Positions 3 to 6,226 of a DNA stretch of 6,412 nucleotides are shown here, one piece after another. The DNA comes from Candidatus Gerdarchaeota archaeon. Lineage in GTDB: Archaea; Asgardarchaeota; Heimdallarchaeia; JABLTI01. The notes under the pieces are model-generated. The model was not told the origin of the DNA. It searched no databases and saw only the letters and a list, made by a program, of their open reading frames with translations. The position numbers and the translations under genes were made by a program. Every line of letters begins with the position of its first letter. The first letter of the stretch is position 1. The DNA is taken from NCBI GenBank assembly GCA_016839405.1, contig JAEOUJ010000096.1:1-6412 (forward strand), read 5' to 3'.

Positions 3-782
3 AATCTCTCATGGCTAATTTGGATTATAACAGCAATTGTTTTTGGTTCGTCTGCAATTATTACAGCATTATTAATACCAAAAATAAATCCCGATGAAAA
101 ATCTAAAATCAATATAAATGATGTTTGGAAAATACCTAAAACTATTTGGCATTTGGGTGGAAGAAATTGGGTGTTTCTATTAATTATTGGAGTATTTTGG
201 GCTTTTAGTTCTCATTTAGTTGAAACAAGCATAATAGATTATTTAGTAACGAGATTTAATGAGACAGAATCAAAAGCTTCTCTATCGACTAATATTTTGA
301 TGGGAGGATATATTGCTGTTCTTTTAATACCAATTTTAATAATAAGCAATAAAATTAGTGAAAAAAGGGTAAATAAAATAACAGTAATAATTTACTTTTC
401 ATTTTGTATTTTTCTAGCATTAATTCCTAATTTCAATTGGATTTACTTTATAGTATTATTTGGAGGTATAGGCAATATTCTATTGAGTACAATACAAATA
501 TCTTTACCAGCTGAGCAAGTACCAAAAGGTAAAGAAGCAAGCTTTCTTGGTGTTTTTTTTGTTTTTAGTACTATAGCTAAACCATTTGCCACATTTATTC
601 AAGGTGTCTTATTAGAAAATAACGAAACCAATACATCTATCAAAATCTTTGGAGGGTATCCATGGATTTTCTTATTAGCAGGATTTGTGATGATATTAAC
701 ACTAATTCCACTATCGTTTATCGGAGATATGAAAAACAAAAATATAGAGAATAAAGAAAAAGAAAGAATTTTTACTTTGTAG
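3..782 (+). CDS. Major facilitator superfamily transporter, C-terminal half (5' end outside window)
   Basis: The frame is open from the first complete codon at base 3 to the TAG at 780-782, so the gene begins left of the window; the TTG at 153 is internal. The visible 259 residues fit the second half of a 12-helix MFS permease. A helix at about residues 4-26 (likely TM6) is followed by a polar loop with KINPDEKSK, which would be the central cytoplasmic loop. Six more hydrophobic segments follow at about 56-78, 97-115, 126-142, 147-165, 181-203 and 220-240. The loop between the fourth and fifth of these reads LPAEQVPKGKEASFLG, typical of the TM10-TM11 connection in MFS_1 exporters. The tail is short and charged (KNKNIENKEKER). 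Substrate cannot be told from this half; drug or metabolite efflux is only a guess. The 3' end overlaps the convergent ABC ATPase gene by 11 bases. Confidence 0.85.
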   Translation, partial: NLSWLIWIITAIVFGSSAIITALLIPKINPDEKSKININDVWKIPKTIWHLGGRNWVFLLIIGVFWAFSSHLVETSIIDYLVTRFNETESKASLSTNILMGGYIAVLLIPILIISNKISEKRVNKITVIIYFSFCIFLALIPNFNWIYFIVLFGGIGNILLSTIQISLPAEQVPKGKEASFLGVFFVFSTIAKPFATFIQGVLLENNETNTSIKIFGGYPWIFLLAGFVMILTLIPLSFIGDMKNKNIENKEKERIFTL

Positions 783-2142: not shown

Positions 2143-2150
2143 TTTAAATT
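2143..2150 (+). promoter_or_regulatory. Possible TATA box of the ESCRT cluster
   Basis: TTTAAATT would set transcription start near 2171, just before the ribosome binding site at 2175-2179, giving a very short leader. Other A/T stretches further upstream (for example around 2061-2090) would serve as well, so the assignment is weak. Confidence 0.3.
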
Positions 2151-2191: not shown

Positions 2192-2947
2192 TTGTCGCGA
2201 AATAATATTAATGATTTAGCAATCGCCCGAGAAGCACAATTGATGTTTACCTATACACAAGGATTCAAACCAATAGGTAACGAATTGAATAAGTGGAAAG
2301 GTTCAATCTTGGTTGAAACACCATCAGGTGAACAAACTATAGATGTGGAAATACTTGTTCCTTTAAAATATCCACAATATCCTCCACGTGTTCTTGTATT
2401 AAGTAAGAATATTCAACATCCAAATATTGAGAAAAATGGTAATGTTCTCTTACAAATCACTCATGATTGGAGACCAGATATTCATGTATATCAAGTTGTT
2501 CACTCTCTTCAAGATTTATTCAAAAAAGTTCCACCACAATTTACTGATGATGGTGGAGTTAAAATAGTGAAACAAAAAGCAAAAGTGCAAGAATCAAGTA
2601 CAATAGGAACAGTTAATCAACAAAAAGTTATGAATGTAAATGAAAACATAACAGATCTTCAAGAGAAAATAAAACAACGAGATGAAGAACTAAGATCACT
2701 ACGAACACAGCTTGTAAAGGATTCGAATGAAACTGTTACAACTGTTGAAGATATTGTTCTTCAAAAAGATAGACTTGAAAGTCAAGAATTACTTTTACAA
2801 GCCAAAGCTGTTGCTTTAGCGGACCTTCTAGTTACACTTGATGAGAAATTCAAAGATGGGGAAATTAGCCCAATTGATTTCGCTAAACTCTATAGAAAAT
2901 ACACTAAAGAGCTTTACATGGTTCATAAGGAATTAGAATTAAAATAA
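2192..2947 (+). CDS. ESCRT-I Vps23/TSG101-like protein: UEV domain, coiled coil, steadiness box
   Basis: 251 residues, TTG start. Residues about 1-118 form a ubiquitin-conjugating-enzyme-like fold: YPQYPP (60-65), HPN (76-78), then NGNVLLQITHDW (82-93) and a terminal helix ending VPPQF (113-117). The catalytic Cys position of E2 enzymes is Leu86, so this is a UEV (inactive E2 variant), expected to bind rather than transfer ubiquitin. The stretch to PPQF resembles human TSG101 (LHEW...EPPVF) as I recall it. A polar linker (119-148) lacks the proline-rich stretch of TSG101. A predicted coiled coil follows at about 150-176 (ITDLQEKIKQRDEELRSLRTQL). Residues about 200-251 match the Vps23 steadiness box (LVTLDEKFKDGEISPIDF), which packs against Vps28 in the ESCRT-I headpiece. 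It is the first gene of the cluster, 15 bases before vps28. Domain assignments are mine by pattern; ubiquitin binding is inferred. Confidence 0.88.
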   Translation: MSRNNINDLAIAREAQLMFTYTQGFKPIGNELNKWKGSILVETPSGEQTIDVEILVPLKYPQYPPRVLVLSKNIQHPNIEKNGNVLLQITHDWRPDIHVYQVVHSLQDLFKKVPPQFTDDGGVKIVKQKAKVQESSTIGTVNQQKVMNVNENITDLQEKIKQRDEELRSLRTQLVKDSNETVTTVEDIVLQKDRLESQELLLQAKAVALADLLVTLDEKFKDGEISPIDFAKLYRKYTKELYMVHKELELK

Positions 2948-2962
2948 GAATGAGGTAGAAAA

Positions 2963-3601
2963 ATGTCATATTCATCTAAAATGAAATCCCAACTAGAATT
3001 AGAAGCAGAATTATTCTCTTGTATAGCTACAATAGATAATTTAAGTCATAGTTTTGCTGATGGTATACTAGATCCAGGTATGTATAGAAGACAATTACGT
3101 TCACTAATTCGTGATGCTTTTAAAACAAGATTTCAACTTCAAAAGAAAGGTTTTGACCTTGATAGTTTTATTGAACGCGAGAAAATTGTTCAAAAATACC
3201 CATATGGAGCAGAAAAACTTCGATTCGCTGAAGGTGTAGCACCAATACCTATCGATGAGTCTGTAGAAACCTTTGCTATGCCTTTTAGTGATATGAAAAT
3301 CTTACCAGCAAAAAGTGCTGATTTTGTAGCTGGTGCAATTGAATTGATTGATTTACTTAGGTTAGGTTCTGTAGCTAGAGTTGACTTAATAGTGCCAAAT
3401 CTTGATGAAATGGCAGATATATTAATCAATTATCCAGGCTATGGTAAAGAATCCGATATAGTAAAAGAAATCAATAATTGGAAAGGAATGCTTGAAGCAA
3501 AACCACCAGATGAAGTACTTGAAGAAGGCTTAATAAAGCGATTAGAATTTGAAGCAGTAAGATGGCTAAATGGATTTAGAAGATCACTAAGAAATCCATA
3601 G
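2963..3601 (+). CDS. ESCRT-I subunit Vps28, with both N- and C-terminal domains
   Basis: 212 residues, close to human VPS28 (about 220). GAGGT at 2952-2956 sits 6 bases before the ATG. The N-terminal domain (about 10-95) has the helical hairpin ELFSCIATIDNLSHSFADG (16-34) then DPGMYRRQLRSLIRDAF. Next comes SFIEREKIV followed by YPYGAEKLRFAEG (79-91), equivalent to the region preceding the linker in eukaryotic Vps28. After a linker (about 92-115), residues about 118-210 match the four-helix Vps28 C-terminal domain: AIELIDLLRLGSVARVD, NLDEMADILINYP, IVKEINNWKGMLEAKPPDE and FEAVRWLNGFRRSL. In eukaryotes the N-terminal domain binds Vps23 in the headpiece and the C-terminal domain contacts ESCRT-II. 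Its place between a Vps23-like and a Vps22-like gene supports the same jobs. Alignment is from memory of the human protein. Confidence 0.9.
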   Translation: MSYSSKMKSQLELEAELFSCIATIDNLSHSFADGILDPGMYRRQLRSLIRDAFKTRFQLQKKGFDLDSFIEREKIVQKYPYGAEKLRFAEGVAPIPIDESVETFAMPFSDMKILPAKSADFVAGAIELIDLLRLGSVARVDLIVPNLDEMADILINYPGYGKESDIVKEINNWKGMLEAKPPDEVLEEGLIKRLEFEAVRWLNGFRRSLRNP

Positions 3602-3648
3602 AATTCCATCATTCTCCTTTTTATATCCAATAAAAATCAATTTAAAAA

Positions 3649-3653
3649 GAGGT
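3649..3653 (+). promoter_or_regulatory. Ribosome binding site for the GTG-started 107-residue gene
   Basis: GAGGT lies 6 bases before the GTG at 3660, the same box and spacing as for vps28 (2952-2956). This supports both the non-ATG start and the reality of the gene. Confidence 0.65.
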
Positions 3654-3659
3654 ATTAAA

Positions 3660-3983
3660 GTGCAAGGAAATCCAGTAGCTTATAAAAAGCTATATCGACA
3701 TTTACAAGAATTACTAAATTATCTTGAAATTTCATTGGATTCCGATTTTGTCTTAGAAGAACTAAATGCAGCACTTTATGAATGTGAAATTATTTTTGGA
3801 AAAAGACATCAATTTGCCAATCAAATTAGAGGATTAATGAAGGATTTTTACAATAAATATATCGATAAAAAAGAGTTACCTCTTGAGTATAATGATGAGA
3901 AAAAATTGGAAAGAAAAATACATGAATGGTTAAAAAAGTACTATAAAAAAGAACCAATAAGAGGAGCCATTTCGAAACGTTAA
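3660..3983 (+). CDS. Unrecognised small helical protein within the ESCRT cluster
   Basis: 107 residues, GTG start. I do not recognise a family. The composition suggests four helices: about 6-24 (VAYKKLYRHLQELLNYLEI), 29-46 (DFVLEELNAALYECEIIF), 49-69 (RHQFANQIRGLMKDFYNKY) and 79-96 (DEKKLERKIHEWLKKYY). A basic tail follows (KKEPIRGAISKR). There is no signal peptide, membrane segment or metal-binding cluster; the single cysteine is C42. It lies 58 bases after vps28 and 40 bases before the vps22-like gene on the same strand, which makes a role with ESCRT-I or ESCRT-II likely by context. It could fill the place of Vps37 or Mvb12, the eukaryotic ESCRT-I subunits not otherwise seen here. It is too short and lacks the winged-helix pattern for Vps25. 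The function is inference only. Confidence 0.8.
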   Translation: MQGNPVAYKKLYRHLQELLNYLEISLDSDFVLEELNAALYECEIIFGKRHQFANQIRGLMKDFYNKYIDKKELPLEYNDEKKLERKIHEWLKKYYKKEPIRGAISKR

Positions 3984-4023
3984 ATTTGTTAGTTAACCTA
4001 AAAACATATTGAGGAAAAACAAA

Positions 4024-4749
4024 ATGGGTTTAAGAGATATAGAAAAGAAAATCAGAGTAAAATCAGCTTTCAAAACAAAAGAAGCAGAGATAATACTAAA
4101 AGATTTAGAGCAAATGCTAGAGAATATTCGTGAACTAAGAAGCCAATTAAAGAAATTTGAAAAGAAATGGAGTAAAGACATTTCAAAAGATGAAAGTTCA
4201 TACAAAAAACTAGTGGAATTAAGACAAGAATTGGGATTACCTGATGAAGTGGGTGTTTATGAATTTAAGGAAAGCCCATCTTTTTGGGATCGAATAGGTG
4301 GTGGTGATTTCTTTGAACGATTGGGTGTGGAAATTCTTGAGAAAGCAAAAGAAGTTCAAGAATATACTGGTGGTCTTATGACACTAGGTGAAGTTGTTTT
4401 GCTAGTGAATAAAGAAAGACCAGGTAAAATCATTGCTTCTAAAGATGTTGTAACTGCAATTGAGAAATTAACAGAAGCTAAATTAATTCCAAAACCAAAA
4501 GAATTGTCTAGTGGAGTAATTTTAGTTGAATTTATACCAGCAAACCTTTCCGATGATCAAGAAGAAGTATTAGCATTATCAACTAGAAAAGGATGGATAT
4601 CCTTAGAGGAATTGATGCTTAAAACCCGATGGTCTCAAGAGAGATGTGAACGTATACTTGAATCAATGCGTGATGCAGGTATAGCTCGAGTTGATGCTAG
4701 TTATGCTGAAGGAAAGAAATATTACTTCCCCGGTTTAGGTGGAAGATAA
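4024..4749 (+). CDS. ESCRT-II EAP30-family subunit, Vps22/SNF8-like
   Basis: 241 residues from the ATG at 4024, preceded by GAGG at 4011-4014 (9-base spacing). A TTG at 4009 is in frame but overlaps that box, so it is rejected. A basic N-terminal helix (GLRDIEKKIRVKSAFKTK, 2-19) and a helical stalk (about 20-70) lead to SFWDRIGGGDFFERLGVEIL (86-105), the hallmark of EAP30 proteins. Winged helix 1 spans about 106-170 (TGGLMTLGEVVLLVNKERPG, 115-134). Winged helix 2 spans about 172-241 (IPANLSDDQEEVLAL, RWSQERCERILESM, ending KKYYFPGLGGR). Both resemble human SNF8 as I recall it (RNGGLITLEEL, WETERARQVLEHLL, HYWLPALF). There is no GLUE or NZF domain, so it is Vps22-like rather than Vps36-like. 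In eukaryotes Vps22 pairs with Vps36 and two Vps25 copies to link ESCRT-I to ESCRT-III at membranes. No Vps25 gene follows. It is the last gene of the cluster. Confidence 0.9.
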   Translation: MGLRDIEKKIRVKSAFKTKEAEIILKDLEQMLENIRELRSQLKKFEKKWSKDISKDESSYKKLVELRQELGLPDEVGVYEFKESPSFWDRIGGGDFFERLGVEILEKAKEVQEYTGGLMTLGEVVLLVNKERPGKIIASKDVVTAIEKLTEAKLIPKPKELSSGVILVEFIPANLSDDQEEVLALSTRKGWISLEELMLKTRWSQERCERILESMRDAGIARVDASYAEGKKYYFPGLGGR

Positions 4750-4831
4750 TTTCCTTTTTTATTCTTAAAAAAATTTAATAGTAGTTTTGCTTTTCAATTA
4801 CATAATAATTTTGGATTAGATATAAATTATA
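4750..4831. terminator. Convergent T/A-rich spacer, probable terminators for both strands
   Basis: Directly after the vps22-like stop there is TTTCCTTTTTT (4750-4760), an archaeal oligo-T terminator for the plus strand. A7 at 4767-4773 reads as T7 on the minus strand and could end the transcript of the membrane-anchored protein gene, about 60 bases past its stop codon. No strong hairpin accompanies either run. Confidence 0.5.
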
Positions 4832-6226
4832 TTATTCTGAATTTTCTATATCATCATTAATTTTTTCTATATCAGTGGATTCTTGATTTTTACCAATACC
4901 TTCTGAAGTAAATTCAATTGTTTTGGGTTTCTTTTCTTTCCTACGTTTCGTTTCTTTTGGTGATATCTCTACTTTCTCTTTAGATTCTTTTTCTTCATCC
5001 TCTATTTTCTTTTTAAATTCGGGCAATCCTTCCATAACATAAACGAAAATCACAAATCCTATAACTGCTGCAATAACCAAAGACCCAACTGCAATTTTCC
5101 ATGTTTTCCAATAATTTGGTAATCTACCAGCTGCTTGCATTTCATCTAGCCAAGCAAATGAAGACATTTTTGGATCGCCTGTAGGAGTGAATAAACCAGC
5201 TGTAGCATGAACTTCCAAAAATGGACTAAAATAAGCACTTAGATAACCAGGAGGATAATCAAAGATAGAATACCAACAAACAAATTCTAGTTTATCATCA
5301 TATAACTCAATGAAATTAAATAAATGTTTTACAAAACTTGCTTGATAATATTCAGAACTACCAGCACGGCTGTCAGAGATTGTATAAGTATTAGTTATTG
5401 CAATTTTTTTACTTGTTAAATTAGCAAATGAAGAATATCTCTCTAAAACTCCTGATTCATCTAATTGAGTTAAATAACCAAAATTATCAGTGAAAATTCT
5501 ACTTGAAATAGCAAATATATCACAAGTATTGTTGAAAAGAGAAATTATTGCTTCAATATTAATCAGATCAATTGGTGGTTGGTATCTGAAAATTGTTAAA
5601 ACTTTTGTATCAGAATAATTAGTTTTCACGAAATCATACATCTGTTCACATAAATCGATATAATCCATAAGCATTACAGTGTTGTTCATAGTTTCAGTTT
5701 CATAATCAAAATAAGTTTCAAAGAAACCATTAATCTCATTACCAAAACTAACATAATCTAATTCCATACCACCAATAAGTAAATTAGCAAATTTCTTTAA
5801 AGGTTCAACGACAGCGGTATCATTAAATCTAACAATTGCTTCTGAAGCATTAGTATAAGATTGAAAATTATAATCAATTGGTAATGCTGATGAATTACTA
5901 CTGATAATACTAAGTGCTAATGATTTTGAAAACTCGGGATATCTATTAAGATATAATTGATCCCATTCCAAAATAGGTGTTAATGTCAAATTCAAGAAAT
6001 CCCATCTATATTCACGATGTTCAATTTGGCACCCCATTTCTTTGGCTTTAGCATAACCCATATCAGTCATTTCTGAAGCACCAATCAGACCATTTATTGC
6101 TGTGAAACCAATTTTTACATCTTCTGCGTAACCTTGTGTTGAAGTAGGAAAGGTAGAGGATATTATGAGTGATGGTAGGAAAAGAGTGGAAAGGAAAATG
6201 ATTAGTAAATATTTAGAATATTTCAT
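4832..6226 (-). CDS. Membrane-anchored extracellular protein with glycoside hydrolase-like (clan GH-A type) domain
   Basis: 464 residues. A signal peptide or N-terminal anchor lies at about 1-34 (KYLLIIFLSTLFLPSLIIS). The ectodomain (about 35-372) reads like a TIM-barrel glycosidase. SFGNEIN (160-166) gives the strand-4 Asn-Glu acid/base pair (N163, E164). KKIAITNTYT (273-282) sits where clan GH-A enzymes have the strand-7 nucleophile (usually ITE). FVCWYSIFDYP (315-325) and GLFTPTGDPKMSSFAWL (344-360) match the final strands. At the expected nucleophile position stands N279, so it may be a binding protein or pseudoenzyme. A membrane helix (about 378-398) is followed by a highly charged tail of about 65 residues. 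All eight N-glycosylation sequons (79, 111, 126, 135, 181, 203, 232, 269) are in the ectodomain, agreeing with an outward orientation. AGGTGAT at 6233-6239 is 6 bases from the ATG and overlaps the stop of the upstream gene, so the two are cotranslated. Family number and sugar substrate are unknown. Confidence 0.8.
   Translation of the reverse strand: MKYSKYLLIIFLSTLFLPSLIISSTFPTSTQGYAEDVKIGFTAINGLIGASEMTDMGYAKAKEMGCQIEHREYRWDFLNLTLTPILEWDQLYLNRYPEFSKSLALSIISSNSSALPIDYNFQSYTNASEAIVRFNDTAVVEPLKKFANLLIGGMELDYVSFGNEINGFFETYFDYETETMNNTVMLMDYIDLCEQMYDFVKTNYSDTKVLTIFRYQPPIDLINIEAIISLFNNTCDIFAISSRIFTDNFGYLTQLDESGVLERYSSFANLTSKKIAITNTYTISDSRAGSSEYYQASFVKHLFNFIELYDDKLEFVCWYSIFDYPPGYLSAYFSPFLEVHATAGLFTPTGDPKMSSFAWLDEMQAAGRLPNYWKTWKIAVGSLVIAAVIGFVIFVYVMEGLPEFKKKIEDEEKESKEKVEISPKETKRRKEKKPKTIEFTSEGIGKNQESTDIEKINDDIENSE

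Follow-up and report, generated by a model that had tools for sequence, protein, structure and literature searches.

Four co-directed genes for early components of the endosomal sorting complexes required for transport (ESCRT) lie in contig JAEOUJ010000096.1 of Candidatus Gerdarchaeota archaeon, which was analysed as a window of 6,412 bases whose positions serve as coordinates below. They encode, in order, the ESCRT-I subunits UEV-Vps23 and Vps28, a small protein of 107 amino acids (aa) and the ESCRT-II subunit Vps22. Profile comparison, matches of sister proteins to a hidden Markov model (HMM) and genomic position together show the family of the small protein to be a freestanding homologue of the C-terminal helical domain of Vps28 (Vps28-C). 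The best explanation of the whole, which we hold to be probable, is an early-ESCRT cluster with a second, freestanding Vps28-C-like protein as a candidate for a further ESCRT-I/II subunit. The layout of the cluster itself was already known, and its recovery here confirms the existing picture without altering it; what the analysis adds concerns the small protein, namely the assignment of its family to Vps28-C, its fixed place after vps28, the genome count and the grouping of the family on a single branch.

Homology of the small protein family to Vps28-C

The original prediction, made from the DNA sequence alone, described the third product as a small unknown protein. It matches no Pfam family over cut-off, but profile comparison places its family with Vps28-C. 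The main hhalign run compared 44 small proteins with 78 Vps28-C domains, the window being included in both sets, and used 100 column shuffles and a reversed alignment as controls. It returned a probability of 94.8, an E-value of 5.2e-8 and a score of 45.5 over 88 columns, against a shuffle maximum of 17.75 (n=100) and 20.0 for the reversed alignment. For the small proteins outside the clade of the window protein (the window clade), the values were 96.0, 4.8e-9 and 50.2, with shuffles reaching at most 19.1 and the reversed alignment 17.4; an earlier run with fewer sequences and 30 shuffles had given an E-value of 2e-4 and probabilities of 45-48. Against the Vps28 N-terminal domain, the Vps23 coil and steadiness box, UEV and Vps22, scores ranged from 9.6 to 21.6, the highest value covering 13 columns of the Vps23 coil.

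HMM searches in both directions agree with this relationship. As independent evidence, a Vps28-C HMM built from 30 Vps28 proteins only and searched among 811 open reading frames (ORFs) matched 11 small ORFs from 9 genomes (E 2.1e-9 to 0.0045), with no short ORF from beyond the family below 0.46. Searched the other way round, the small-protein HMM ranked Vps28 proteins and fusions highest among long ORFs, starting at 8.2e-4, ahead of a Vps22 at 0.17 as the best of all remaining proteins.

The small family is a distinct group within this homology. In an unrooted tree of 81 non-redundant domains (31 small proteins and 50 Vps28-C domains; 101 columns), the 31 small proteins form one side of a single branch supported by 99 bootstrap and 99.7 in the SH-like approximate likelihood ratio test (SH-aLRT). 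Every small-protein row listed has a gap of two residues between the first helices, which also occurs in the Vps28 of two genomes (G173 and G174). Conservation reaches at least 0.9 in 14 columns of Vps28-C; the window Vps28 keeps the consensus at all of them, whereas the small proteins share the same residue at that level at just one, W201 (0.93); most of the Vps28-C signature is thus lost from them, and they have invariant residues of their own, E33 and Y67 in the numbering of the window protein. Judged from these alignments, the small protein is a diverged paralogue of Vps28-C, not a spare copy, and the pattern may be read as a single early split from Vps28-C, after which the surface changed.

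That the small gene is real follows from its 37 homologues in the protein database (E at most 8.2e-23) and from the differences between it and its relatives, which fall mostly at third codon positions. The closest protein, FK731_06585 [Asgard group archaeon], is 99% identical, and one related small protein carries a Gerdarchaeota label. These names, with the Heimdallarchaeota labels of the related loci, point to an archaeon of the Heimdall group that is probably Gerdarchaeales-like. The length is 107 aa in the window and its close relative P0002, and 100 aa at the six related loci described below (L001-L006).

Two profiles were searched against 227 Asgard genomes: A1, from 35 window-clade sequences, whose search is independent, and A2, a wider profile of 25 sequences, whose search is partly confirmatory since 15 of these come from the searched genomes. 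A1 matched 32 genomes at E ≤ 0.01, namely nine of the window clade (≤ 5.8e-52), 21 more (≤ 9.2e-8) and two weakly (G099 and G174, both 0.007); at the loci of the 30 convincing matches, the small gene stands beside ESCRT-I/II genes. A2 matched 49 genomes at E ≤ 0.01, 43 of them at ≤ 5.1e-24, and the next match, at 2.3e-5, lies in a 472-aa frame (G169). Three further weak A2 matches (G045, G014 and G044) fall within Vps28 genes, and others occur in G047, G136 and G084 and as second matches in G064 and G071. Two weak matches in G005 (L013, E 0.013; L014, E 0.041) were rejected because ESCRT neighbours are absent, and a search of plasmids with the small protein gave no match. Several isolated matches were dismissed as noise: a Smr domain match (0.1), Pfam matches of A1 members that all lie under cut-off (CHAD 0.015, VasL 0.0081 and others), and PDB matches with E-values of 0.2, 1.1 and 0.029, of which the third is to PP-BRD20, by name a designed repeat-type chain.

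Position of the small gene across Asgard genomes

Gene order was read in 79 genomes, comprising the 43 with the small gene and 36 others that were not sampled at random but picked for strong VPS28 matches or closely placed vps28 and vps22 genes, so that the proportion of these loci without the small gene is no estimate for Asgard archaea. In all 41 loci holding both genes, the small gene lies directly downstream of vps28 on the same strand; the other two stretches (G011 and G071) contain no full vps28, and there the small gene stands beside vps22. The next gene is vps22, within 150 bases, in 38 of the 43 genomes. The five exceptions are two genomes in which an antisense gene intervenes (G005 and G006), one with vps22 about 1.5 kb away (G062), one with 1.48 kb and two inserted frames between them (G034; L095 1400-2635) and one with vps22 4.7 kb away on the other strand (G012). 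The frames inserted in G034 look TnpB-like by eye.

Vps23 and Vps28 are encoded by one fused gene in 19 of the 79 loci, and a separate small gene follows in all 19. Upstream of one such fused UEV-Vps23-Vps28 gene, a frame at L095 4635-5246 resembles, by eye, the end of an E1/ThiF-type enzyme. Among the 36 comparison genomes, vps28 and vps22 are adjacent in 26, and 1.5-1.7 kb apart in nine (G047, G049, G050, G052-G055, G057 and G058); in the remaining one, the stretch read contains no vps22. In G057, a 455-aa frame (L067 84-1448) downstream of vps28 faces the ESCRT genes and matches no Pfam family.

Possible role and competing explanations

Published accounts of how ESCRT-I hands over to ESCRT-II in Asgard archaea leave a gap. 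According to the text of Hatano et al. 2022 (PMC9192718), Vps36 and Vps37 were not found in Asgard genomes and the factor bridging ESCRT-I to ESCRT-II in an Odinarchaeon is undetermined; the same source describes an Asgard Vps23-Vps28-ubiquitin complex and yeast two-hybrid contacts between ESCRT-I and Vps22. Co-directed Asgard vps23, vps28 and vps22 genes have already been published by Makarova et al. 2024 (PMC10936438), whose text also states that eukaryotic Vps28-C contacts ESCRT-II and that some Asgard genomes encode the Vps28 C-terminal domain separately, besides a full vps28. The small family is probably this separate Vps28_C. That text gives no fixed slot after vps28, no count and no single branch, all of which are reported here for the family, and no recognised description of the small protein was found in a literature search that covered material other than figures and supplements. 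A protein fixed between vps28 and vps22, and homologous to the Vps28 domain that touches ESCRT-II, is a concrete candidate for the handover.

The proposed mechanism is as follows. Vps23 and Vps28 would assemble ESCRT-I through their steadiness boxes, with the UEV domain reading ubiquitin, while the C-terminal domain of Vps28 and its freestanding cousin would be docking heads of two kinds, one or both of them in contact with Vps22. Vps22 in turn would hand on, via Vps25, to ESCRT-III and Vps4, which are encoded elsewhere. The freestanding domain would have separated once and early, stayed beside vps28 and altered its surface, and because of this surface change it most likely binds a partner other than that of Vps28-C. 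Its partner may be Vps22 or a further protein, in either case giving ESCRT-I a putative second docking head. Going by homology and gene position, the small protein is likely to belong to the complex, and in archaea such as these, from which Vps36 and Vps37 have not been reported, it is the strongest candidate for an additional ESCRT-I/II subunit. A more far-reaching version, which we put forward only tentatively and regard as doubtful, would make it an overlooked ancient early-ESCRT subunit: a paralogous Vps28-C of single origin that persisted in trans despite Vps23-Vps28 fusion and, where Vps36 and Vps37 are lacking, connects ESCRT-I with ESCRT-II (or with Vps25/ESCRT-III) as the bridge missing so far. 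If so, two-head docking of Asgard ESCRT-I would represent an alternative, non-eukaryotic route for the handover.

The fusion protein HeimAB125_14070 (PMC9192718) combines the same three domains as the window's Vps23 and Vps28, which are separate genes here; fusions of this type directly precede the small gene in the 19 loci mentioned above. A third small subunit is neither described nor tested in the text on this protein. The Odinarchaeum system (PMC9192718) has separate UEV-Vps23 and Vps28 proteins, as in the window, and a stable complex with ubiquitin was measured there; it is described as a Vps23 dimer with one Vps28 and without mention in the text of a small subunit, whereas the window carries a small gene. 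The eukaryotic Vps28 C-terminal domain is, by profile, a helical domain homologous to the small protein, but the latter stands alone, without a steadiness box or most of the archaeal Vps28-C signature residues.

A different view of the cluster as a whole accepts that it encodes genuine ESCRT-I/II proteins but has them work without ubiquitin cargo, in the release of extracellular vesicles or in cell division, with the UEV domain as an adaptor to the membrane or to a partner. In its favour, other archaea use ESCRT-III and Vps4 to divide and to release vesicles, according to the texts of PMC9192718 and PMC10936438, no ubiquitin gene occurs in the window, and none was found in one related draft genome (G003). 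Nine related draft genomes (G001-G006 and G061-G063) were examined for the remaining machinery: ubiquitin was found in all but one (G003), ESCRT-III in all nine, and Vps25 and Vps4_C in seven each. This presence of ubiquitin, the retention of the UEV domain and the ubiquitin binding measured for Asgard UEV proteins (as stated in PMC9192718) make a ubiquitin-free role rather unlikely, and the cluster may instead take part in ubiquitin-dependent sorting.

Several results weigh against a Vps28-C-like subunit in the window, and some of them favour the view that the small protein is helical but has no kinship with ESCRT, or that it regulates the cluster, and that its place there is accidental. Taken alone, neither the window protein nor any of the 35 A1 members reaches a Pfam cut-off; Pfam VPS28 matches none of the 35 and none of four distant small proteins, and PDB searches with the small protein matched no solved Vps28 chain. 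The window clade by itself (10 sequences) gave a score of 20.1 and a probability of 7.2 against Vps28-C, not above the shuffle maximum of 21.1, and the Vps28-C HMM matched its members at E 0.26 or worse. The identification of the window protein is therefore transitive, passing through the sister small proteins, to which its clade aligns with a probability of 98.7 and an E-value of 4.4e-16 over 90 columns. The tree lacks a root and was flagged for long branches and a low number of columns. In addition, 36 of the 79 loci contain Vps28 and no small gene there, so the small protein is dispensable for Asgard ESCRT in general. An unrelated protein or mere regulator is nevertheless improbable: adjacency to ESCRT-I/II genes is consistent with what is seen in each of the 43 genomes that carry the small gene, the position is held across strongly diverged sequences and Vps23-Vps28 fusions, and sister proteins match Vps28-C at up to 2.1e-9.

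Identification of the small protein as the missing third subunit of the ESCRT-I headpiece, a Vps37- or Mvb12-like protein pairing with the steadiness boxes of Vps23 and Vps28, would suit its size and place in the cluster and the reported lack of Vps37 in Asgard genomes (text of PMC9192718), but it is very improbable and was rejected for want of steadiness-box and Mod_r matches: the Vps28 N-terminal steadiness box scored 11.3 (no profile match), the Vps23 coil/steadiness box 20.8 over 13 columns as against 45.5 over 88 columns for Vps28-C, Mod_r/Vps37 matched none of the 35 A1 members, and two Vps23 copies occupy that place in an Odinarchaeon, as described in PMC9192718.

The ESCRT-I/ESCRT-II cluster and its surroundings

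The reading frames, single strand and intergenic gaps of 15, 58 and 40 bases given in the original prediction were reproduced when vps22 is taken to begin at ATG 4024, and its ribosome binding sites were recovered as Shine-Dalgarno-like motifs ahead of all four starts: GAGGAG at 2174-2179 (vps23), GAGGT at 2952-2956 (vps28), GAGGT at 3649-3653 (small gene) and GAGGA at 4011-4015 (vps22). The TTG start of vps23 is conserved in all six relatives compared. Features are listed in the table.

Table. Features of the window; positions are window positions unless given as residues.
Feature	Position	Strand	Basis or remark
oppF-like ABC ATPase gene	772-1875	minus	divergent flank of the four-gene cluster
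TATA-like box TTTAAAT, candidate cluster promoter	2143..2149	+	consensus match
UEV-Vps23 (TSG101-like), TTG start	2192..2947	+	Pfam UEV, UQ_con
UEV	Vps23 residues about 29-115		
Coiled coil	Vps23 residues about 124-184		
Putative Vps23-core/steadiness box	Vps23 residues about 188-244		
Vps28	2963..3601	+	Pfam VPS28
Vps28 C-terminal helical domain	residues about 112-212, 3296-3598	+	
Small protein, 107 aa, GTG start, freestanding Vps28-C-like helical protein	3660..3983	+	profile comparison, position
TTTCGAAACGTTAAATTT, candidate internal BRE/TATA promoter ahead of vps22	3970..3987	+	conservation; putative function
Vps22 (SNF8/EAP30), ESCRT-II, start ATG 4024	4024..4749	+	Pfam EAP30, PDB SNF8
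464-aa protein gene	4832-6226	minus	convergent flank of the cluster

The proposed ESCRT identities were borne out by Pfam profiles, which three of the four proteins match over cut-off; UEV, VPS28 and EAP30 were all recovered at this level, and among the profiles named in the prediction only Vps23_core fell just short. The outcome that would have refuted the prediction, profile searches without a significant match to these families, thus did not occur. Vps23 matches UQ_con (1.6e-15) and UEV (3e-9), and its Vps23_core match (E 6.7e-5) lies at the expected place in the protein and scores 23.2 bits, the cut-off being 26.8; four relatives scanned likewise remain below cut-off, at 19.7-23.0 bits. 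Since the position of the E2 catalytic cysteine is occupied by leucine (NGNVLLQ vs NGNICLD), the first domain is a UEV and not an active E2, and as a domain of ubiquitin-binding type it is predicted to bind ubiquitin. Vps28 (Pfam VPS28, 8.9e-8) aligns over residues 15-208 with positions 2-187 of the 188-position profile and combines an N-terminal steadiness box and a C-terminal helical domain in a single protein. Vps22 matches EAP30 at 1e-23, and it is assigned to Vps22 and not Vps36 because its best solved relative, SNF8/Vps22 (2.2e-20), is matched far more strongly than VPS36 (1.1e-5).

The linkage of ESCRT-I to ESCRT-II genes is real and recurs. At six related loci (L001-L006), retrieved with Vps28 and labelled Candidatus Heimdallarchaeota, the four genes have the same order and strand in every case, which argues against a chance arrangement. 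PMC9192718 calls ESCRT-I genes not tightly clustered in its text, whereas they are clustered in the loci examined here. At L005 and L006, an antisense gene (3454-4797 and 11052-12422, respectively) separates the small gene from vps22; that of L006 encodes an RsmB/F-type RNA methyltransferase (Pfam 1.8e-43).

The cluster may be transcribed as one operon, as had been proposed. The TATA-like box, 24 nt ahead of the first Shine-Dalgarno site, is conserved in all six aligned upstream regions (window, L001, L002, L003, L005 and L006; L004 is too short). A second candidate element, TTTCGAAACGTTAAATTT, resembling a B recognition element (BRE) with TATA box, lies 23 nt ahead of the vps22 Shine-Dalgarno site; it is conserved in all seven aligned sequences, six of which contain the exact ten-base core CGAAACGTTA, although L001 and L003 are near-copies, so that independent cases number fewer than seven. 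This conservation, together with the loci in which vps22 is split off (G005, G006, G034 and G012), suggests that transcription of vps22 can start from a separate promoter. The small gene of the window, with its longer frame, overlaps this element.

Of the downstream machinery in the related draft genomes, Vps4 adjoins Vps25 in all seven that have both (G001-G003, G006 and G061-G063), with ESCRT-III placed on other contigs in each case, in contrast to the tight ESCRT-III/Vps4/Vps25 grouping described in the text of PMC9192718. The same text reports a single Vps22/Vps36-like gene in Asgard genomes; a second EAP30 protein is encoded outside the cluster in G062 and G063 (L132 641-1333 and L134 702-1391), that of G063 matching SNF8 at 2.5e-8 and VPS36 at 0.0052.

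The 464-aa protein encoded on the minus strand beyond vps22 reaches no Pfam cut-off and has hydrophobic stretches at its N-terminal and C-terminal ends. Its gene lies downstream of the cluster in all six relatives, interrupted in L002 by the contig end.

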